From positions 1-27,931 of the IMG/VR virus record IMGVR_UViG_3300021354_000029: 27,931 bases of DNA; one strand, given 5' to 3'. This DNA comes from a virus. The notes beneath the pieces were generated by a model. The model was not told the origin of the DNA, did not search any database, and was given only the letters and a program-made list of their open reading frames with translations. Below are positions 6,012 to 20,837 of the stretch, one piece after another. The position numbers were made by a program, and so were the translations under genes. How positions within the stretch are numbered: the first letter of the stretch is position 1; the number at the start of each line of letters is the position of its first letter.

Positions 6012-6056
6012 TCAATCAGAAACAAATAACAATATACTAATTAAACACACTAAAAA

Positions 6057-9000
6057 ATGAACGTAGGAAGCAATCAATTAACTCTCAATAATATCATTAA
6101 TTTTCTTGCCAGCTTAGCTGCTGGTCACAAGATGATTAGTGCATTTGGTTATGGCCCTATATATGACCTTACCAATGCAAAGAATCAAAGCTATCCTTAC
6201 TTATGGGTAGAACCACAAAGAAGCATTATCCACAAGGACCATATTGAATTAAAACTTAAGTTATTCCTTATGGATGAAGTATCTAAGGGTAATGAGAATA
6301 GAAATGATGTTCATTCAGATACCTTTGGTACACTACTTCAATTGAGAGCTTATATTTATAAGGATTTAGCAGTATGGTTACTTCCTAGTGATGATTCAGA
6401 TATTGAGCCTTTATATGAAAAGTTTGATAATGATACTACTGGATGGTCTTTAAGTCTTAATTTAAAGTTTGATTGGAGAGCTGATGTATGTACTATACCT
6501 GGATTATATTTAAGTGGAACAACCTTTCAAACTGGTTGTGACTTTATCAATGTATCCTCTACGAATTATCTACCATTAACTGGTGGACAATTAACTGGTG
6601 ATTTAAGTGGTACAACCATTTATATGAATGATTATTATTCTGGAGGTACCGAGTTATCAACTGTTATTTATGATATAGCAAGTAGTGTTGTACCGCCAGC
6701 GAGCAATTTATATTGGACAAGTGGTAGTACAGGAGCATATTCATTAAAGACAATTAATGATACAACAACTGATGCCACAGGAAATTATGCTATTGCAGAA
6801 GGATGTGAAACAACAGCTCAAGGTGATTATTCACACGCTGAAGGAAATGCTTCTATTGCCTCTGGAACTACCAGCCACGCAGAAGGAGCAAGTACACAAG
6901 CACTTGGTGTTAATTCACACTCCGAAGGTGATAGTTCGATAGCTCAAGGAGATACAAGTCACGCTGAAGGAAATTCAATTGCTATAGGATTAGTTAGTCA
7001 CGCAGAGGGTTATTCAACTACAGCAACTGGAGACCATTCACATTCTGAAGGTGATACCACACAGGCAAATGGAATTTCTTCTCATACTGAAGGATTCTAT
7101 TCAATAGCACAAGGAAATTTTTCACACGCTGAAGGACAATCAACAGAAACAGTAGGTTATAATTCTCATTCTGAAGGTAATTCAACAATAGCTTATGGTA
7201 ATAATTCTCACGTTGAAGGTGATAGTAGTATAACAAATGGTGATGCAAGTCACGCTGAAGGTTATCATACAACAGCAACTGGAGACCATTCACATTCTGA
7301 AGGAGCATTTACACAAGCAATTGGAGAGGCATCTCACGCTGAAGGCCTTGCTTCACAAGCTGTTGGTGCTTATAGTCACGCTGGTGGTGTTAATTCAATA
7401 GCAACAGGTAGTACATCTTTTGTTTTTGGTAATAACAATAAAGCAAATGGGAATAATACAGCTGTTCTTGGTGGTAATAATATAACTGGAACTGAAGATA
7501 ATAGTACTTATGTACCTACCTTATTCGTGATGAATGCGTTAACTGATAACTCAGCAACCAACTTATTAGTGAGAGAGGCAACAGGTGAGATAAGGATGAG
7601 GGCGTTATCAAGTATAAGTACTGTTACTATCACAGGTGGTACTTATAATCCAAATACTGGTGTAACAACTCTTTATAATTCAACTGGTGGTACCATATCA
7701 ATTAGTGGTTATTATACAGGATTTACTGGAGGATTAGTAAGTGGTGCAACTCAATTTACAGGTGGATTAACAGCTAATACGCTTAACTTATTATCAGCAA
7801 CAACCAATAATGGAGTAACAAATGTATTAGCGTTGAATCCTATAACGAATCAAGTTGTTTTAAGAACGCTTATCCCAGACAATACGGTTACAGGGTTCAC
7901 ATTTAATCCATCAACATATGATTTAACAATTACTCAGAATAATGGATTATTACCACTTACTACCAACTTAGGTATACTTGCAAGTGATATGGTTGTTACT
8001 GGAGGTACATATAACCCAAATACAGGTGTAGCAACATTCACTAATAATAGCGGTGGTACCTTTCAAGTTACAGGATTCTTAACAGGTCATACTGATACAT
8101 ATGTAACTGGAATGACATTTTCATCCAATACGCTTACGTTATATCAGACACAAGGTAATGCAAGTGTTTCTCAGTTGATAAATAATTTTTCTTCTCTTTC
8201 TGCAAATTCTTTTTCTGCAACGACATATTATGGTTTACCTGTTGATGTGCTAGTTACTGGTGGTACATATACCAACGGTACAGCTATATTTACTAATAAT
8301 ACAGGTGGTACATTTAGTGTAACTGGATTTAGTACTAGTACAGCAACAGCTTTCACAGGTGGAACAGTAACAGGTGCAACTAATTTCACAGGAGGATTAA
8401 CTGGTAATACTTTTTCTGCAACAACAGCCATTATAGGTAATAGTGGTAATGAGGGTGGTGGTATAACAGTAAATGGGACCACATATGATTCTTCTTTTAA
8501 GGTAAGTGATATTAATGGAAATAACTTAGCACAAACAATCCTTCATCGACATTCAACAACACTTGAACCTTTAATTGTAGGTGCAAGAAGCAATTCAAAT
8601 AATAATGGTCACACAGGTGTAACAGCTAATCAAAATGTATTTTCAATTTATGGTGTTGGTTATATAGGAAATGATTACAAACAATTCGGACAAATAAGTC
8701 TTGGAGTTGATTCATTAGGTTCTTTAAGTAATACTTCATCTCCTGGTATAATTAAATTTTTAACTACTCCAAATGGAAGTGTAACGCCTATTGTTGCAGT
8801 TACTATTAATAGTCAGCAGCAATTAACAGCAAATGCAATAAGTGCTACTACTGTTACTGCAACTACTCTTACAGCAACAACATATCAAGGTATACCGAGT
8901 GTTCTTGGTGTTCTTGCTGATGGACAGAGTGGTGTGATTGCAACTGGTGTATTAGGATATAAGGTATTAGATTTTCCTGGAATTATAACTGGATATGATA

Positions 9001-9257
9001 TTGTGGCATCCACCACAGGTTATTGTCAATTTGATATATGGAAGATTGCAGCTGGTACAACACTTCCAACAAGTGCAAACACCATTACATCAACAAATAA
9101 ACCAACGCTAAGTTCTGGATTGATAATTTCATCTACCAATTTATCTGGATGGACAACAACCTTTGCTGCTGGTGATATAATCGCTTATAACGTTGTATCA
9201 GCAAGTACAGTAACCAAAGCAACACTAACACTTAAAACACTTATAAATACACAATAA
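6057..9257 (+). CDS. Tail fibre/adhesin: tail-completion-like N terminus plus YadA-type repeats
   Basis: A 1066-residue protein in clear sections. Residues 1-150 form a compact non-repetitive domain (FGYGPIYDL..., YPYLWVEP..., LFLMDEV..., DVHSDTF) that resembles tail-completion or tail-terminator proteins and may anchor it to the virion. From about 244 to 477 there are 14-residue repeats of the SHAEG-x-x-TxAxG type seen in head domains of trimeric autotransporter adhesins such as YadA, ending in a VFGNNNKANG cap. Residues 520-800 hold imperfect TGGTYNPNTGV...GGTFxVTGF repeats rich in Gly, Thr, Ser and Asn. The last ~120 residues (GYDIVASTTGYCQFDIWKI...) form a probable distal carbohydrate- or receptor-binding domain. 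It likely trimerises as a receptor-binding fibre. A 45-bp A-rich gap separates it from terL. Confidence 0.75.
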   Translation: MNVGSNQLTLNNIINFLASLAAGHKMISAFGYGPIYDLTNAKNQSYPYLWVEPQRSIIHKDHIELKLKLFLMDEVSKGNENRNDVHSDTFGTLLQLRAYIYKDLAVWLLPSDDSDIEPLYEKFDNDTTGWSLSLNLKFDWRADVCTIPGLYLSGTTFQTGCDFINVSSTNYLPLTGGQLTGDLSGTTIYMNDYYSGGTELSTVIYDIASSVVPPASNLYWTSGSTGAYSLKTINDTTTDATGNYAIAEGCETTAQGDYSHAEGNASIASGTTSHAEGASTQALGVNSHSEGDSSIAQGDTSHAEGNSIAIGLVSHAEGYSTTATGDHSHSEGDTTQANGISSHTEGFYSIAQGNFSHAEGQSTETVGYNSHSEGNSTIAYGNNSHVEGDSSITNGDASHAEGYHTTATGDHSHSEGAFTQAIGEASHAEGLASQAVGAYSHAGGVNSIATGSTSFVFGNNNKANGNNTAVLGGNNITGTEDNSTYVPTLFVMNALTDNSATNLLVREATGEIRMRALSSISTVTITGGTYNPNTGVTTLYNSTGGTISISGYYTGFTGGLVSGATQFTGGLTANTLNLLSATTNNGVTNVLALNPITNQVVLRTLIPDNTVTGFTFNPSTYDLTITQNNGLLPLTTNLGILASDMVVTGGTYNPNTGVATFTNNSGGTFQVTGFLTGHTDTYVTGMTFSSNTLTLYQTQGNASVSQLINNFSSLSANSFSATTYYGLPVDVLVTGGTYTNGTAIFTNNTGGTFSVTGFSTSTATAFTGGTVTGATNFTGGLTGNTFSATTAIIGNSGNEGGGITVNGTTYDSSFKVSDINGNNLAQTILHRHSTTLEPLIVGARSNSNNNGHTGVTANQNVFSIYGVGYIGNDYKQFGQISLGVDSLGSLSNTSSPGIIKFLTTPNGSVTPIVAVTINSQQQLTANAISATTVTATTLTATTYQGIPSVLGVLADGQSGVIATGVLGYKVLDFPGIITGYDIVASTTGYCQFDIWKIAAGTTLPTSANTITSTNKPTLSSGLIISSTNLSGWTTTFAAGDIIAYNVVSASTVTKATLTLKTLINTQ
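6780..7490 (+). repeat. YadA-head 42-bp coding repeats
   Basis: The DNA encodes a tandem series of 14-residue units, each 42 bp, with recurring core codons for S-H-A/S-E-G. A 32-bp stretch (ACAGCAACTGGAGACCATTC and the next 12 bases) occurs identically at 7020-7051 and 7272-7303, exactly 252 bp apart, or six units. This suggests growth by duplication of a multi-unit block. The repeats are in frame throughout, so copy-number change would lengthen or shorten the fibre without breaking the gene. Confidence 0.8.
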
Positions 9258-13981: not shown

Positions 13982-16900
13982 ATGAATGCTAGAATAGAAC
14001 TATTTGTTAACCTAACTGGAAGTACTGCACAGGGTCAAGTTGACCTTTTTGGTGATGAGCCTATAGTGCTTAAGATGGCAGCTGCTGATATACGTGATAT
14101 AAAGTCACGTAAGTCTAGTTATAGTCAATCCTTTGTCGTACCTGGTACAAAGAATAATAACTTATTATTCAATAGTATTTATAATATAGGTATTGATAGT
14201 CAATTCGATGCAAGGAAGAAAACCCCAGCATTCTTACAAGTTGATAGTATTCCAGTAATGACAGGTAATCTTCAGTTAACTGGTATTAATGTAGATGATG
14301 AAAAGAATGTAACCTATGAAGTAAGTCTTTTTGACGATACTGGTAACTTTATAGATGCCTTAGGAGCAACAGAGTTAACTGATTATAAGTGGAATGAATT
14401 GGACCATACGTGGTCATATTCATCTATAACCAATTCTTGGACTGGTTCATCTCAACCCTATTTCTATCCACTAATTGACCTAGGGTACGATTGGAGCGTT
14501 TCTAGCTTAAATTCTGGACAAGGAGTTAGCTTTCAATATCCGATGTATCCAGCTACACAAGTTAAAACAATCATTGATAAGATATTTTCAAGTACAGGAT
14601 ATACCTATACATCTAATTTCTTTAATTCAGATTATTTCAAGAACTTATATATACCATTTGTAGGTTTAAAGGAGTTAGCAAATACAACAACCTTTGCCAC
14701 AAGCAGACAATTCCTTATTCATTCAACAACAGGATATACGGTAAGTAGTGGTATAACCTATTCAAATATAGGTGGAATCGTTCAGAATACTACAATAGTA
14801 ACTTCAGAGAATAGATTATTTTTTAATAATGTAACACCACCAAACTTCAATAATAGTGGTTTATTTAATATTACTACATCTGATTATACAGCTGATACAG
14901 GACTTGAGGTGCAATTCTTTATTAATGTTGGCTTTTCAGCTGATACAAGTAGTGGTTTAACTCTATTAGGTTCTGCCTTACCAGGAGATATTTCCAATTA
15001 TTCAAACTTGATAGTTAATTTCTATCGTGATGGTGGGACAGGTACTCCAGTATTAGCTTGTCCTCCAGTATATGTTGGTATACCTACTTCACAGAATACA
15101 GGTTATACTGGTAATTTATTTTGTCAATCAACACCATTAACAGCGGTACCAAATGAAAAGTTTTGGGCTACCTATAAGGTTTACTTTGTTCTTCAGAATC
15201 CTAATTCTGGAACTACACATACATTTAATTTTGGCTTTATTCCAACTAATACATATGAATATAATAATGTAAGTCAAAGAATCGTTCCATTTCAAATGGT
15301 TGATTATGGTTCTTGGATTCCTAAGAAGATTAAGGTTCTAGATTTTCTAACAAGCATTATCACGATGCACAACCTATATGTTGTACCAGACCCAAATAAT
15401 CCTAAGAGTCTTATTATAGAACCTAGAGATGATTGGTATTCAAGTGGAAAGACACTTGATTGGTCAACTAAATGGGATGCTAGCGTACCAGTTACACAAC
15501 AATTACTATCAGAACAAACCAATAAGAGAATTGTATTCAGCTACGCTGAGGATACAGACTTTTATTCTGATAACTATAAGAAAGCTACCAATCGTATCTT
15601 TGGTGATTATTATCAAGTAGTTGATAATGATTTTGCTGTACAAGATGATTATAATATAGATACAATATTTGCACCAACACCAAGCGTAGCTGTATTGGAA
15701 AGTGGTTCTTTTGTTCCACCAGATTTAACAGGTTTTACTGCTAACGAATTCGTTATCCCTAAGATAGGCAAGACGGATAGCAATAATCATTTTGGTTCAA
15801 CCAATTATAAGATTCGTATACTTCAAAAGAATCCTAATAACTTAATACCTCTAACCAATGGTGATAGTTGGATGCTTAATTATACCAAGTACACAAGTTA
15901 TCCTTATTTAGGAATGCTTAGTCATCCTAGTGTAATGTCAGCTGCAACCGATATAAGTTTTGGACAAGTAAATTATGAATTTTATACACTTCCAGCAATA
16001 ACCAATAATAACCTAGTGAATAAGTATTGGCAGAAGTATCTTAATCAAATAATGGATAAGGATGCGAAGATAGTAACTTGTAACCTATATCTTAAACCAA
16101 ATGATATAGCTACGTTATCGTTGAATGATACTATATTTATGGATGGTCTTACATCTGATGGTGGTCATTATTATTTAATCAATAGTATTGAATACACACC
16201 AACAGCAAATGTAACTAGTAAGGTTGAGTTGATTAAGTTAAATGAAAAGTTTGTTAGTACAAGTGGAAGCAGTCCAATAAGTAATGTATTTGGGCAAATA
16301 CCACTTCAGAGTATTAATATGGCTGGTGGACAGAGTTATTCAACAGGTAGCATAGCTATGGGTAATAATGTTGTTATTTCAACTCAAGCAGCTGGAAGCG
16401 TTGCCATAGGGGATACAATAAGTGTTGGCAGTCCAAGGAGTCTAGTAGTTGGTAGTGGAAGTACAATAGGTGGTGGAGCAGCTGGTAGTGTTATCTTTGG
16501 TAATGGAATATTAGCAACAACAGGTAATACTGTATATATGAATAATGCTGTTATAAGTAGTGGTGGAACCATTAATGGAGTATCAGCGGCACAAATAGTA
16601 GCTAATAGTAGTATATGGAGTGCTGGTACTGGTACATATTCAATCGTAGCAATTAACGATACTAATAATGTGGCTAGTAGTAATTATGATTATGCAGAAG
16701 GAGCTACAACAACAGCAAGAGGTGGTGCAAGTCACGCTGAAGGAAATATAACAACTGCCTTTGGACAAACAAGTCACGCTGAGGGTGACCATACAACAGC
16801 TATAGGTATTGTTAGTCATTCAGAAGGTGGATATACAACAGCACAAGGAGATTATAGTCACGCTGGTGGTTATGGTATTAATGTATTACATTTTGGTGAA

Positions 16901-17314
16901 TGGGGTAGAAGTTCAGATATGACTCAAAAAGGAGCATATGGAATAACTCATTATTCAACACAAACAACGACCAATACACCAAGTGAAGCATTCCTTGATG
17001 GTTTTGGTGGTAGTCAACGTTTTACCATTCCAAATAATTCAGCTTATAAGGTAAAGGTATATGCAGTTGCAATTGAAATTACAACAGGTTATCCTTCAAA
17101 GGAATGGGAAGGAAGTGGACTTATAAAGAATAATGCTGGTGCTGTAAGTCTTGTTGGTTCATTAACGATGTCATCAACGAATGGTGATGCGGCATTATCA
17201 ACAACAAGCATAGCTATGACAGCAGCAAGTGGAGCACTTGTTGCAACAGTAACTGGTATAAGTGGTACAGCTGTAAGATGGAGTATCAAATGTGAATACA
17301 CAAGTGTAAGCTAA
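13982..17314 (+). CDS. Tail hub/baseplate protein with YadA-type repeats and fibre C terminus
   Basis: This 1110-residue protein joins a structural hub to an adhesin-like end. Residues 1-160 (DIRDIKSRKSSYSQSFVVPG..., YKWNELDHTWS) and 450-560 (KVLDFLTSIITMHNLYVVPD, LIIEPRDDWY, DWSTKWD) are of a type found in Bacteroidota-phage baseplate hubs, analogous in position to Tal/gp27 proteins. Around 785-830 are GSIAMGNNV...GSVAIGD repeats, followed at about 903-963 by SHAEG-type YadA-head repeats also found in the fibre gene at 6057. The C-terminal 100 residues (RFTIPNNSAYKVKVYAVAIE, ...NNAGAVSLVGSLTM, VTGISGTAVRWSIKCEYTSV) match a beta-rich module common at the ends of phage fibres. It probably caps the tail and contacts the receptor. 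Confidence 0.7.
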   Translation: MNARIELFVNLTGSTAQGQVDLFGDEPIVLKMAAADIRDIKSRKSSYSQSFVVPGTKNNNLLFNSIYNIGIDSQFDARKKTPAFLQVDSIPVMTGNLQLTGINVDDEKNVTYEVSLFDDTGNFIDALGATELTDYKWNELDHTWSYSSITNSWTGSSQPYFYPLIDLGYDWSVSSLNSGQGVSFQYPMYPATQVKTIIDKIFSSTGYTYTSNFFNSDYFKNLYIPFVGLKELANTTTFATSRQFLIHSTTGYTVSSGITYSNIGGIVQNTTIVTSENRLFFNNVTPPNFNNSGLFNITTSDYTADTGLEVQFFINVGFSADTSSGLTLLGSALPGDISNYSNLIVNFYRDGGTGTPVLACPPVYVGIPTSQNTGYTGNLFCQSTPLTAVPNEKFWATYKVYFVLQNPNSGTTHTFNFGFIPTNTYEYNNVSQRIVPFQMVDYGSWIPKKIKVLDFLTSIITMHNLYVVPDPNNPKSLIIEPRDDWYSSGKTLDWSTKWDASVPVTQQLLSEQTNKRIVFSYAEDTDFYSDNYKKATNRIFGDYYQVVDNDFAVQDDYNIDTIFAPTPSVAVLESGSFVPPDLTGFTANEFVIPKIGKTDSNNHFGSTNYKIRILQKNPNNLIPLTNGDSWMLNYTKYTSYPYLGMLSHPSVMSAATDISFGQVNYEFYTLPAITNNNLVNKYWQKYLNQIMDKDAKIVTCNLYLKPNDIATLSLNDTIFMDGLTSDGGHYYLINSIEYTPTANVTSKVELIKLNEKFVSTSGSSPISNVFGQIPLQSINMAGGQSYSTGSIAMGNNVVISTQAAGSVAIGDTISVGSPRSLVVGSGSTIGGGAAGSVIFGNGILATTGNTVYMNNAVISSGGTINGVSAAQIVANSSIWSAGTGTYSIVAINDTNNVASSNYDYAEGATTTARGGASHAEGNITTAFGQTSHAEGDHTTAIGIVSHSEGGYTTAQGDYSHAGGYGINVLHFGEWGRSSDMTQKGAYGITHYSTQTTTNTPSEAFLDGFGGSQRFTIPNNSAYKVKVYAVAIEITTGYPSKEWEGSGLIKNNAGAVSLVGSLTMSSTNGDAALSTTSIAMTAASGALVATVTGISGTAVRWSIKCEYTSVS

Positions 17315-17339: not shown

Positions 17340-19277
17340 ATGGCAGAAGAATTAAATCTAAATATAAACGTTGATTCATCCCAACTAGATAAAGCTGGGA
17401 ATAAGATTAAGGAAGTTGGTGAACATACTGGTGGTCTTAGAAAAGAATTAAGAGCAACAACAGAAGCAACCAAAGGACTTGGTGAAGCGTTTGGAGGTGC
17501 CTCTAAGGATTTAGGTGCATTATCTGAAGGTTCAAGGATGGCTTATGCTGGCTTCGAATTAATGGAAGGTGGTCTTAAGGGTCTTGCAGATACTATGGCA
17601 GCTAATCCATTTTTACTTGCAGCTATTGCTATTGCAGCAGTTGTTGTAAGTCTTGGTGAGATGAATAAGGAATTCGCTAAGACTCGTGTTGAAGTTATTA
17701 AATCTGGGGAGAAGTTAAAGGAATTTGGTAAGATGGCTGAAGATGCTGATAGGGAATTAGCTCAAGCCAAGGATGACCTTGCTCTAGCTAATGGTACTCT
17801 AACCAAGTCTGAATATGATAGATTAAAGGCTTTAAGAGAAGGTCAAAAGATAATTGAACAAAATACTGAAAAACAAGCTAAGAGTCTTGGTGAATTAAGA
17901 CTAAACGCTATTAATGCTGGTAAGGCTTTTGAAGCTTCAAATAATTGGTTAGGTAAGTTAACTGGTCAATATCAATTAAACTTAGATGCTAAGAATAAAG
18001 CTCTCAAGGAATTAAATGATGCTGAAGAGTTAATGGTTAAAAGTGATAAAGATAGAGCTGAGGCCGCATCTAAAAAAGCTGATGCTAAACAAAAAAATGA
18101 TGAAAAGAAGGATGATAAGAAGGATGCTAGTGATTTAAAGAAGGCAGAGGAAAAAGCTAGAAAAGAATTAAAAATCAGACTAGATTTGGATAAAGCAATC
18201 CTTGCTGCTGATAAGGATAATCTAGTTAAGAAGAAAAAGGTTTTAGATGATGAATTAGCTGAAAAGCTAATGGATGCTGATTTAACAGAATCTGAAATCC
18301 TAACGATTAAAAAGACATACGAACAAAATTGGGAGAATATTCAACAAGAAGCTAGAAGTAAACAAGAAGCTGAATCAATTAAAGAAGCAGAATTCTATAA
18401 GAAGCTTATGGAAGAAACTGCCAAGGAACAGGAAAAGGCTAAGGAAAGGGAGAGAAAGAATACTGAAAAGACGCTTGAATTAAAGCTTAAGGCTGATAAG
18501 GATTATGCGGCAGCACATAAGTTAAGTCTTAATGTACAATATCAAGTTGTAAGTGATGAACAAGACTTGGAAATTAAAAAGATTAATGATATCAGAGCTA
18601 AACAGTTATTTGATGCTAAGGATGATGCTGAGGCAATTAAACAGATTAATCAAGATGCTGATGATGCTATTGTTCAAATAAAAGCTGATTCAGCTGAAAA
18701 GATTGATAAGATAAATAAGGACTCATTAAATAAAGCAATCGGTGCTGCTCAAGACCTTAATAATGCATTACAGGGATTATCAGATGCGTATTTTGCCTTC
18801 AAGACTGAAAACTTAAAGAAAGGTAGCCAAGCTGAATTAGACGCTGCTAAGAAACAATTCAAGATAAATAAGGGACTTAGTATTGTAAATGCTTTGATTC
18901 ACGGAGCTGAAGGTAGTGCTAAGATATGGTCAACTTGGGCTGATTATCCAATTGTTGCGGCAGCACTTCAAGCAGTTGAAATTGCAACCGTAGGTCTTCA
19001 AATTGGTAAGATTAAGAATCAACAATTCCCAAGTAGTGAAAGTCCAGGTGGTAGCGTTGGTTCTGGAGGTGGTGGTTCATCTATGGGTGGATTTACACCA
19101 CAGAGTCTACAACAAATTGGTAGTGGGCAGCCTGGATTTAATAATCCATTAACACCAACAAGTCAAGGGACAAATTCAAATAATCAACCATCTAAGATGT
19201 ATGTAGTTGCTAGTGATATTACATCATCTCAAAATAAAAATGCTGTGCTAGATAGAAGAGCCAGCTTCAATCATTAA
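17340..19277 (+). CDS. Tape measure protein
   Basis: A 645-residue, strongly helical, Lys/Glu/Ala/Asp-rich protein. A coiled-coil N terminus is followed by a hydrophobic segment at 90-105 (PFLLAAIAIAAVVVSL), then long charged heptad-rich helices at about 110-500, a second semi-hydrophobic part at 515-560 (SIVNALIHGAEGSAKIW..., VAAALQAVEIATVGL) and a Gly/Ser/Gln-rich C terminus. This is the pattern of tape measure proteins, which set tail length and pass into the host envelope. At the usual 0.15 nm per residue it predicts a tail near 95 nm. No lytic transglycosylase or peptidase domain is visible. Unusually, the chaperone gene follows rather than precedes it. Confidence 0.85.
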   Translation: MAEELNLNINVDSSQLDKAGNKIKEVGEHTGGLRKELRATTEATKGLGEAFGGASKDLGALSEGSRMAYAGFELMEGGLKGLADTMAANPFLLAAIAIAAVVVSLGEMNKEFAKTRVEVIKSGEKLKEFGKMAEDADRELAQAKDDLALANGTLTKSEYDRLKALREGQKIIEQNTEKQAKSLGELRLNAINAGKAFEASNNWLGKLTGQYQLNLDAKNKALKELNDAEELMVKSDKDRAEAASKKADAKQKNDEKKDDKKDASDLKKAEEKARKELKIRLDLDKAILAADKDNLVKKKKVLDDELAEKLMDADLTESEILTIKKTYEQNWENIQQEARSKQEAESIKEAEFYKKLMEETAKEQEKAKERERKNTEKTLELKLKADKDYAAAHKLSLNVQYQVVSDEQDLEIKKINDIRAKQLFDAKDDAEAIKQINQDADDAIVQIKADSAEKIDKINKDSLNKAIGAAQDLNNALQGLSDAYFAFKTENLKKGSQAELDAAKKQFKINKGLSIVNALIHGAEGSAKIWSTWADYPIVAAALQAVEIATVGLQIGKIKNQQFPSSESPGGSVGSGGGGSSMGGFTPQSLQQIGSGQPGFNNPLTPTSQGTNSNNQPSKMYVVASDITSSQNKNAVLDRRASFNH

Positions 19278-19280
19278 TAT

Positions 19281-19943
19281 ATGGAAACAGTTAAATACAA
19301 TAAGATTACCCTTAATATACCAACCTCTTGGTCTGATATAACACTTGAAAGATTCGTAGCCCTTAAAGAGCACGAAAAGATGAATGGTAAGATGGACTAT
19401 ATTGATTATAGTCTAGGTTATATAAGTATCGTTACAGGTATAAGCCTTGAAGAACTAGACTACTTAACCCCTATTGAATATAATACCCTATTAAATGAAT
19501 TACTAGGTATTACCAAGTCGGAGATAAAACCACTTGATAATCCTACTTATGTTATAGATGGACAGACATATATGCTAGATTCTGATATAAGTAAGATAAG
19601 CCTTGGTCAATATTCCGACTTGGATGATATCCTAAAGGAAGGTGACTTATGGGATGTAGCTCACAAGATAACAGCTAGTTTTTATAGAAAAGCTAATGCA
19701 CCAAAAGAAAGTGGGATTAAAGCTAAGTATAATAAGCTAATGAAGAAATCAATTCCAATGGATAAATATGTAATTGAGGATTATGACTATACAAGGTTAC
19801 TAGAGACTTCAGAGGTATTTTTATATAAGTTACCAATGGATGTAGTATATAGTATCGTGGTTTTTTTTTTAACTATCGTAAAAACCTTGCAGAAAATTAT
19901 AAAGGACTCTTCCCTTCTAGCGGAAGAGAATCCAGGAACTTAG
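19281..19943 (+). CDS. Tail assembly chaperone, zero-frame product
   Basis: In the zero frame this gene encodes 220 residues (NIPTSWSDITLERFVALKEH..., PTYVIDGQTYMLDSDISKIS, LGQYSDLDDIL...). It resembles tail assembly chaperones (lambda gpG analogue) found next to tape measure genes. At codons 195-197 it runs through ten T residues (19861-19870); ribosomes that stay in frame terminate 24 codons later at TAG 19941-19943, which is an uncommon stop codon in this window. Those last residues (TIVKTLQKIIKDSSLLAEENPGT) are therefore probably the short alternative tail. It directly follows the tape measure gene with a three-base gap. Confidence 0.7.
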   Translation: METVKYNKITLNIPTSWSDITLERFVALKEHEKMNGKMDYIDYSLGYISIVTGISLEELDYLTPIEYNTLLNELLGITKSEIKPLDNPTYVIDGQTYMLDSDISKISLGQYSDLDDILKEGDLWDVAHKITASFYRKANAPKESGIKAKYNKLMKKSIPMDKYVIEDYDYTRLLETSEVFLYKLPMDVVYSIVVFFLTIVKTLQKIIKDSSLLAEENPGT

Positions 19944-20164
19944 ACGAAAAAACTAAACAAAATGAGCCAAAGACACTTGAACAGCAATTTAATGATAGAT
20001 GGTCTTGGTATAGCGTAATGAGAGAATTAGCTGGCGGTGACTTAACTAGACTTGAAGAGGTGGCTAATTTACCTCTGATATTTGTGTTAAATGACTTAAG
20101 TTATCAAAAAGAATTAAGTGATTATAAAAAGACCCTTGAATATAAAGGAAGGGGAGGAAAATAA
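19281..20164 (+). CDS. Tail assembly chaperone, -1 frameshift fusion (G/GT-type)
   Basis: Slipping -1 at the U UUU UUA heptamer (19865-19871) continues into a frame open from AAC 19871 to TAA 20162-20164, adding 97 residues and giving a product of about 294. The extension starts NYRKNLAENYKGLFPSSGRE and includes a conserved-looking helical part, RWSWYSVMRELAGGDLTRLE then NLPLIFVLNDLSYQKE. It has no ATG near its beginning (first in-frame ATG at about 20018) and otherwise leaves 225 bp empty in a block with almost no spare DNA. This matches the lambda gpG/gpGT arrangement, where a minor frameshifted product binds both chaperone partner and tape measure. A homopolymer sequencing error or a truly single long frame is the alternative explanation; either way the 97-residue part is coding. 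Confidence 0.75.
19865..19871 (+). promoter_or_regulatory. Programmed -1 ribosomal frameshift site, U UUU UUA
   Basis: The zero frame reads GTT TTT TTT TTA, so the last seven bases form the canonical X XXY YYZ slippery heptamer T TTT TTA. After slipping, both tRNAs can re-pair with TTT TTT. A stem CTCTTCC/GGAAGAG (19907-19913 with 19922-19928, 8-nt loop), extended by GGA/TCC across a two-base bulge, lies 32 nt downstream; that is farther than the usual 5-9 nt spacer, so its role as a stimulator is uncertain. Confidence 0.7.
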
Positions 20165-20168
20165 AACT

Positions 20169-20837
20169 ATGGAACCAAAGAAATTAAGAACAATCGAACT
20201 GTTAATAACAGATGACTTTGATAAAGATAAGGTTGATTATATCAGTCTTGTTGATGACCCAGCTATTCAAGTTGATTGGGTAGCTTTTTCAAATAAAGAA
20301 ATTAAACCTTATAAGTTTAAGGTGACCGATGAATCACAACATAAGCTTGTTGGTCCGTTGATGATACCAAATCAAAAGATATATAGAAATAACCGTGATA
20401 ATGAAGGAAATATTACAGAAGAATGGAATGTGGTATTCTCAGAGAAAAGCATTGAAAATGCTTCGAAGAAATACTTTGCCAATGGATTTAATAAGAATGT
20501 TAATATCAATCACGATGAAAAGGTAGATGGTGTTTGCATTATGGAATCTTGGATTATTCAAGACCCAGAATGTGATAAGGCTAAGCTATATGGCTTTGGT
20601 AACTTGCCTAAGGGAACTTGGATGGCAACCTTCCACGTTAAGAATGATGATATATGGGAAGGCTTCATTAAGACTGGAAAGCTTTTAGGATTTAGTGTAG
20701 AGGGATTATTTATCCAGGGGGAAGAAGTCTTTTCAAGAGCAACAGAAGAGGAAGATTTCAATGAAGAAGAAATCGAATTAATAAATAAAACAATTGAATT
20801 TTTATTGCGTAACCCAGACAAATTGGGACACCTATAA
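20169..20837 (+). CDS. Prohead maturation protease, XkdF-like
   Basis: The 222-residue protein begins MEPKKLRTIELLITDDFDKD and then DYISLVDDPAIQVDWVAFS, the start pattern of XkdF-type phage serine proteases. Candidate catalytic residues are H115 in NINHDE and S127 in CIMESWII, the H...ES spacing of prohead proteases, followed by GTWMATFHVKND (149-160) and LLGFSVEGLF (173-181), both conserved in the group. It would cleave the scaffold and capsid N termini during head maturation. The ATG at 20169 is chosen over a GTG at 20118 because the latter would add 17 residues that overlap the frameshifted chaperone end, and the leader before the ATG (GAAAATAAAACT) has the A-rich form used elsewhere. A 44-bp gap follows. 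Confidence 0.75.
   Translation: MEPKKLRTIELLITDDFDKDKVDYISLVDDPAIQVDWVAFSNKEIKPYKFKVTDESQHKLVGPLMIPNQKIYRNNRDNEGNITEEWNVVFSEKSIENASKKYFANGFNKNVNINHDEKVDGVCIMESWIIQDPECDKAKLYGFGNLPKGTWMATFHVKNDDIWEGFIKTGKLLGFSVEGLFIQGEEVFSRATEEEDFNEEEIELINKTIEFLLRNPDKLGHL

Follow-up and report, generated by a model that had tools for sequence, protein, structure and literature searches.

The locus at positions 19,281 to 20,164 of the window (the whole 27,931-nucleotide stretch of viral DNA analyzed, IMG/VR record IMGVR_UViG_3300021354_000029) is predicted from its sequence to yield a short form of 220 aa nested within the start of a long form of 294 aa, with residues 1-196 in common. The long form would result from the addition of about one extra U, or the re-reading of one base, at a run of ten T's, which would shift decoding into the -1 frame for 97 codons. 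Given its anatomy, which is like that of lambda G/GT, the long and short pair would most likely serve as a tail assembly chaperone. The main agent of the frame change in the window's clade would be RNA polymerase slipping on T runs of at least 9, with a possible contribution from ribosomes that slip at the U-rich heptamers. We assign the full statement (nested products, chaperone role, and RNA polymerase as the main agent) a probability of roughly 0.6. The two frames, the run that joins them, their conservation among relatives, and a minimum run of nine T's whatever the codon phase are properties of the DNA itself and are described below, with the coordinates collected in Table 1.

Table 1. 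Positions of the recoded gene, its slip site, and neighboring features in the window.
Feature	Coordinates	Strand	Remarks
Zero-frame ORF, putative short form (G-like)	19281..19943	+	220 aa, ATG 19281; homologues
T10 candidate slip site	19861..19870	+	T9-T12 in 248/250 relatives
In-phase heptamer U_UUU_UUU	19862..19868	+	position kept family-wide
Second in-phase heptamer U_UUU_UUA	19865..19871	+	sequence reading
-1 frame extension, T-domain-like C-terminus of the predicted 294-aa long form	19871..20164	+	97 codons + TAA
Zero-frame tail 3' of the slip site	19872..19943	+	23 codons here; ~60 in most relatives
Probable tape measure protein gene	17340..19277	+	645 aa; length, coiled-coil-like sequence, position
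Gene following the extension, head maturation protease (Peptidase_S78_2)	20169..20837	+	family match
Empty slot between terminase large subunit and cl1-like gene	6012..6056	+	relatives carry the recoded gene there

In the frame of the ATG at 19281 the site reads GTG GTT TTT TTT TTA ACT, and one base back the sequence continues as AAC TAT CGT AAA. The conserved domain of the 220-aa ORF comprises residues 1-196 and ends in VVFF, and the zero-frame stop codon occupies 19941-19943. The initial annotation had reported a U UUU UUA heptamer at 19865-19871, followed by a -1 frame that was open for 97 codons, lacked a usable start near its beginning, and filled an otherwise empty 225-bp gap. These readings were borne out: the T run holds this heptamer and also U_UUU_UUU in phase, the -1 frame is open from 19871 to 20161 and closes with TAA at 20162-20164, its first ATG lies ∼150 nt in, and the ATG of the next gene (20169) follows after a gap of the length claimed. 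Its proposal that 9 or 11 T's would join the frames was wrong for 9; with 9 T's in the window run the zero frame encounters TAA at once, and 8 or 11 T's would fuse the frames. Two A/T runs of at least 10 were observed in the window (at 19861 and 619) versus ∼0.5 expected in 28 kb of random sequence with the same dinucleotide content, so the T10 run alone is unremarkable and it is the conservation that makes it remarkable. The other T10 run, at 619-628, lies inside an ORF at 293-883 (...LCFFFDG...); by frame reading an inserted T there leads to an immediate stop, such that slippage at that position would truncate the product.

A scan with the zero-frame protein yielded a first relative that was 26% identical (L002); it has nine T's, and its -1 frame encodes a homologous extension. 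Alignments of each half provided 160 viral contigs, and further alignments added ∼150 more. The homologue searches did not select on frame, so the -1 relation was not built into the collection. Among 250 non-identical loci, a set that includes cultured Nonlabens phages, bacterial contigs, and independent samples, all-frame profile searches identified a homologous C-terminus in the -1 frame, starting directly at a T9-T12 run, in 248 cases (190 with T9, 55 with T10, and 3 with T12). Both halves diverge to about 25 to 30% identity with the frame relation held, and the same -1 arrangement, with T9 too, was present in Bacteroidota bacterial contigs and prophages. A protein search of phage records recovered the cultured and completely sequenced Nonlabens phages P12024S and P12024L, which possess nine T's and an extension in the -1 frame. 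Flavobacterium phage 6H gave a weak N-terminal match, and the extension was absent from it. A nucleotide search of phages returned no match. Several proteins of 226 to 267 aa in a viral fold library matched both halves and are candidates for fused, single-frame relatives. We regard programmed recoding, as such, as very nearly certain.

Two other accounts bear directly on this collection. If the true run had 11 (or 8) T's, the locus would have one continuous frame, and the apparent shift would come from a mistake in sequencing or assembly, or from decay of the gene. Single-T variants of this kind do exist: L189 (T11) has a continuous frame and is 99.8% identical to L188 (T10), and L065 (T9) has its C-terminus in the +1 frame and pairs with L051 (T10). 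Each neighbor is >99.6% identical and retains the -1 relation, so these two exceptions among the 250 loci are outliers among near-identical sequences, and we read them as single-T variants or errors at the homopolymer. The -1 relation is shared by 248 of 250 loci from independent samples, including cultured phages and bacterial contigs, which rules out sequencing error as the general cause for the family and leaves this account extremely improbable for the window. According to the second account, the -1 frame is a separate overlapping gene with its own start, as it is in GenBank, where the Nonlabens phage locus is split into two hypothetical proteins (P12024S_38 and P12024S_39) with the second half as its own CDS; internal ATG codons are found in some members. 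We consider this reading very unlikely, because conservation of the -1 protein begins two codons after the T run (an FR motif), upstream of the annotated ATG, there is no conserved start-codon column in that region, and the T run is kept in every member. For JQ823122.1 (23136-23830; L003/L412), genes 38 and 39 of P12024S look like one recoded gene, and the annotation of the second half starts too late, at an internal ATG.

To characterize the site across the family, the run length and codon phase were tabulated over 256 loci by identity clusters. At 50% identity the T run was at least 9 in 33 of 35 clusters, with T8 in two distant ones (L333 and L345). When the run starts from codon position 2 (xTT TTT TTT Txx) there is usually one extra 3' T, and when it starts from codon position 3 (xxT TTT TTT TTx) there are almost always two; two or more extra 3' T's were found in 4 of 24 clusters of the former and 10 of 11 of the latter (Fisher p = 5.1e-5; p = 7e-5 at 40% clusters), values that are indicative since independence among the clusters is incomplete. 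The codon phase of the run changed seven times on the tree, as counted by parsimony. A run of eight T's in the second phase would encode the same junction residues as the common nine-T phase (FFY in the zero frame and FFL in the -1 frame), so the protein sequence does not explain the minimum of nine; such an 8-T run was encountered in one cluster only. The total run length is thus held at nine or more across phases, a property to which RNA polymerase, unlike the ribosome, is sensitive.

The use of such runs elsewhere in these genomes was assessed for 883 other genes from the same loci by comparison with synonymous shuffles. T8 and T9 occurred at 0.36 and 0.27 of expectation, and A8, A9, and A10 or more at 0.49, 0.22, and 0.11, respectively, while runs of 5 to 6 were near 0.7 to 0.9, such that avoidance grows with length. 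Baranov et al. linked a length effect of this type to transcriptional slippage at ∼9 A/T residues (PMC1088944), and the avoidance pattern in the 883 genes matches that slippage-prone length, in contrast to the near-universal retention of the run in the recoded gene. Part of the avoidance could stem from replication slippage or ribosomal slips. The features of transcriptional slippage that are present are therefore an A/T homopolymer of ∼9 or more, conservation of its length and not its phase, and avoidance of such runs elsewhere. They point to RNA polymerase as the main agent in the window's clade, a conclusion that we favor by a modest degree of confidence.

Two other candidate signals were set aside. 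A conserved downstream stem-loop was rejected because folding of 32 T9-clade representatives gave no excess RNA structure next to the site (mean z ∼0), with a slight excess in the clade with seven T's described below; stimulatory structure is common at ribosomal frameshift sites but not required. The immediate stop in the third frame (median 1 codon), considered as a sign of slippage, follows largely from a conserved Phe-Arg encoded as TTT AGR; AGR use at the site was not clearly above background (p = 0.66, 0.15, and 0.02 at 50, 70, and 90% clusters).

Distant homologues of the gene were identified by profile searches of bacterial genomes, in which the two halves aligned with hhalign probabilities of 95.6 and 95.9 (E ∼1e-8), and a scan with one of them provided 66 viral contigs. 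The site in this sister clade is NNT TTT TTT, most often CAT TTT TTT, and always in one phase. Exactly seven T's were present in 45 of 53 sites, eight in six, and nine in two, and a slight excess of RNA structure was noted at the site (z -0.5 to -0.6). A ribosomal site is marked by constraint on the heptamer alone, a pattern that holds in the sister clade and fails in the window's clade. These results suggest that the sister clade uses ribosomal -1 frameshifting on the heptamer. The sister-clade loci (L346-L411) are mostly on contigs of 20 to 30 kb, and their zero frame ends at a nearly fixed distance of 38 to 41 codons after the heptamer. In L330 (1015-1668), a distant relative, a continuous 218-aa ORF behind a terminase gene has a C-terminus like that of the seven-T clade and no T run. 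Divergence of its N-terminal half prevents scoring, and this ORF is possibly a natural single-frame version of the recoded gene.

The sister clade also lends support to an account in which recoding throughout the family is purely ribosomal, with -1 frameshifting at U_UUU_UUU or U_UUU_UUA, no strong stimulator, and a T run that merely encodes Phe-Phe-Phe/Leu. The strict seven-T heptamer of those sites is in line with this account, as is the in-phase U_UUU_UUU of every member, although any T9 run guarantees the latter. The T8 runs of the two distant members of the window's clade and the second T10 in another gene of the window count against RNA polymerase as the agent. In PMC5009743, tail-chaperone recoding is described as ribosomal, and frameshifting in certain tailed phages is reported to need no stimulatory signals. 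The same text gives U_UUU_UUU and U_UUU_UUA as much less shift-prone in E. coli than A_AAA_AAG; moreover, a purely ribosomal mechanism does not predict a run of at least nine across codon phases, and the 32 representatives of the window's clade yielded no downstream structure. We hold the purely ribosomal account to be a real but lesser possibility. The initial annotation had called the site a canonical -1 frameshift site and had proposed alignment of related phages as a check. That alignment, with both the T run and the -1 downstream frame conserved in 248 of 250 relatives, strongly supports a conserved programmed frame change, whereas the ribosomal mechanism is now one of two, given a T run of at least nine whatever the codon phase.

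The zero frame past the slip site showed constraint of its own. It was open for a median of 59 codons compared with ∼16 expected given the protein encoded by the extension, and this openness exceeded chance at p < 0.05 in 20 of 32 representatives. Synonymous codon choice in the extension was distorted, with G/df of 5.9 in its first nine codons versus 1.4 upstream. These codon patterns make it probable that, in most relatives, selection acts on a tail specific to the short form. AGG was strongly preferred over AGA at the conserved Arg, a bias that may reflect dual coding rather than an RNA signal; AGG equals a zero-frame Gly codon. The dual-coding claim does not rest on the window, where the zero-frame tail is 23 codons (p = 0.43). 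For the composite picture of RNA polymerase slippage in the T9 clade, ribosomal -1 frameshifting on U_UUU_UUU in the sister clade, and a dual-coding overlap in most members, we consider the odds to be about even.

The lambda chaperone contacts the tape measure protein through its G part, and its T part brings in the tail tube protein. The recoded protein may, by analogy, have comparable G and T roles. An AF2 model of the shared part had a pLDDT of 89.6, and that of the extension, which is helical, 78.6. Neither half matched a Pfam or NCBIfam family. In the relatives, one half matched PHROG 32199, with E values as low as 1e-18, and the other matched PHROG 38404 weakly (E 0.02-0.05). Both PHROGs are catalogued as families of unknown function, unrelated to each other. 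A fold search of viral proteins (BFVD) matched the Nonlabens protein and many proteins of uncultured phages, along with weak matches (E 0.03 and 0.2) to proteins annotated as tail assembly chaperones. No PDB chain reached Z of at least 5 in a fold search, an absence that does not prove a new fold, and a PDB sequence search for homology to annotated chaperones gave nothing useful. Two features of the chaperone class are nevertheless present: a conserved second ORF without its own start that overlaps the first in the -1 frame, and a shift-prone site where the shared part ends. The gene does not occupy the usual position of such genes, immediately upstream of the tape measure gene; in the window it directly follows the probable tape measure gene, for which no family match was obtained.

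Gene order differs between the window and its relatives. In most relatives the recoded gene resides just behind the gene for the terminase large subunit (TerL) and is followed by a cluster of cl1, gp10-like, cl2, and cl4. The window also has this cluster, but there the cl1 homologue comes immediately after TerL, and the recoded gene is found behind the tape measure gene (17340-20168). Judging by the empty slot between TerL and the cl1-like gene and by its present position, the recoded gene appears to have been relocated in the window. Two long proteins of the window (6057-9257 and 13982-17314) contain SHAEG-type repeats (YadA-head-like); in the first, the repeats are fused behind a cl1-like N-terminus.

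The TerL - recoded gene - cl1 - gp10-like order in most relatives would fit a recoded phage protein with a non-tail role, such as head-tail joining or packaging, as would the lack of confident chaperone homology in the Pfam, NCBIfam, fold, and PDB searches; such a role is compatible with either mechanism of slippage. We judge it unlikely, because the window gene adjoins the probable tape measure gene, recoding that gives two product lengths within a tail module is a defining trait of tail chaperones, and the weak fold matches were to annotated tail assembly chaperones. A tail assembly chaperone of the G/GT type is the likely identity, based on this anatomy and on the neighboring probable tape measure gene. 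The G/GT arrangement named in the initial annotation thus stands as far as anatomy goes (a recoded C-terminal extension, tail genes, and a probable tape measure gene alongside), and not as a match in sequence or confident fold to a known chaperone, with the gene of the relatives adjoining terminase.

Like lambda G/GT (Xu, Hendrix and Duda 2004, cited in PMC5009743 and PMC3711429), the locus would make a product of two lengths by a -1 change of frame, with a C-terminal extension of ∼80 to 100 aa and a tail-gene neighborhood. It differs from lambda in having poly-T of at least 9 in place of GGGAAAG, a zero-frame tail (∼60 codons in most relatives) that overlaps the extension, and a location that is beside TerL in the relatives and, in the window, after the tape measure gene; detectable homology to lambda G/GT is absent. 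Genes reported to undergo transcriptional slippage, such as those of IS transposases, Shigella mxiE and spa13, and Thermus dnaX (PMC1088944 and PMC5009743), rely on a homopolymer of ∼9 or more A/T residues that alters the frame independently of phase, and such runs are avoided elsewhere in coding DNA, as here. The named examples are bacterial genes and transposons, whereas the recoded gene here is from a phage, and no report of transcriptional slippage in a phage tail-type gene was found in the limited library of literature searched. The dnaX homologues of E. coli and Thermus use ribosomal frameshifting and transcriptional slippage, respectively (Larsen et al. 2000, as cited in PMC3711429). 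The T9 and T7 clades resemble that pair, with the agents here read from sequence.

In hundreds of Bacteroidota phages, gene prediction breaks up or misses the long form, and its two halves are database unknowns. Few known uses of frameshifting in phages are as widespread as recoded tail chaperones, and the cases described in the literature consulted are ribosomal. The occurrence of sister clades with seven and with at least nine T's makes the question of the agent directly testable. If the slip is transcriptional in the window's clade, this would suggest that selection keeps the two protein lengths and not the machine that makes them.
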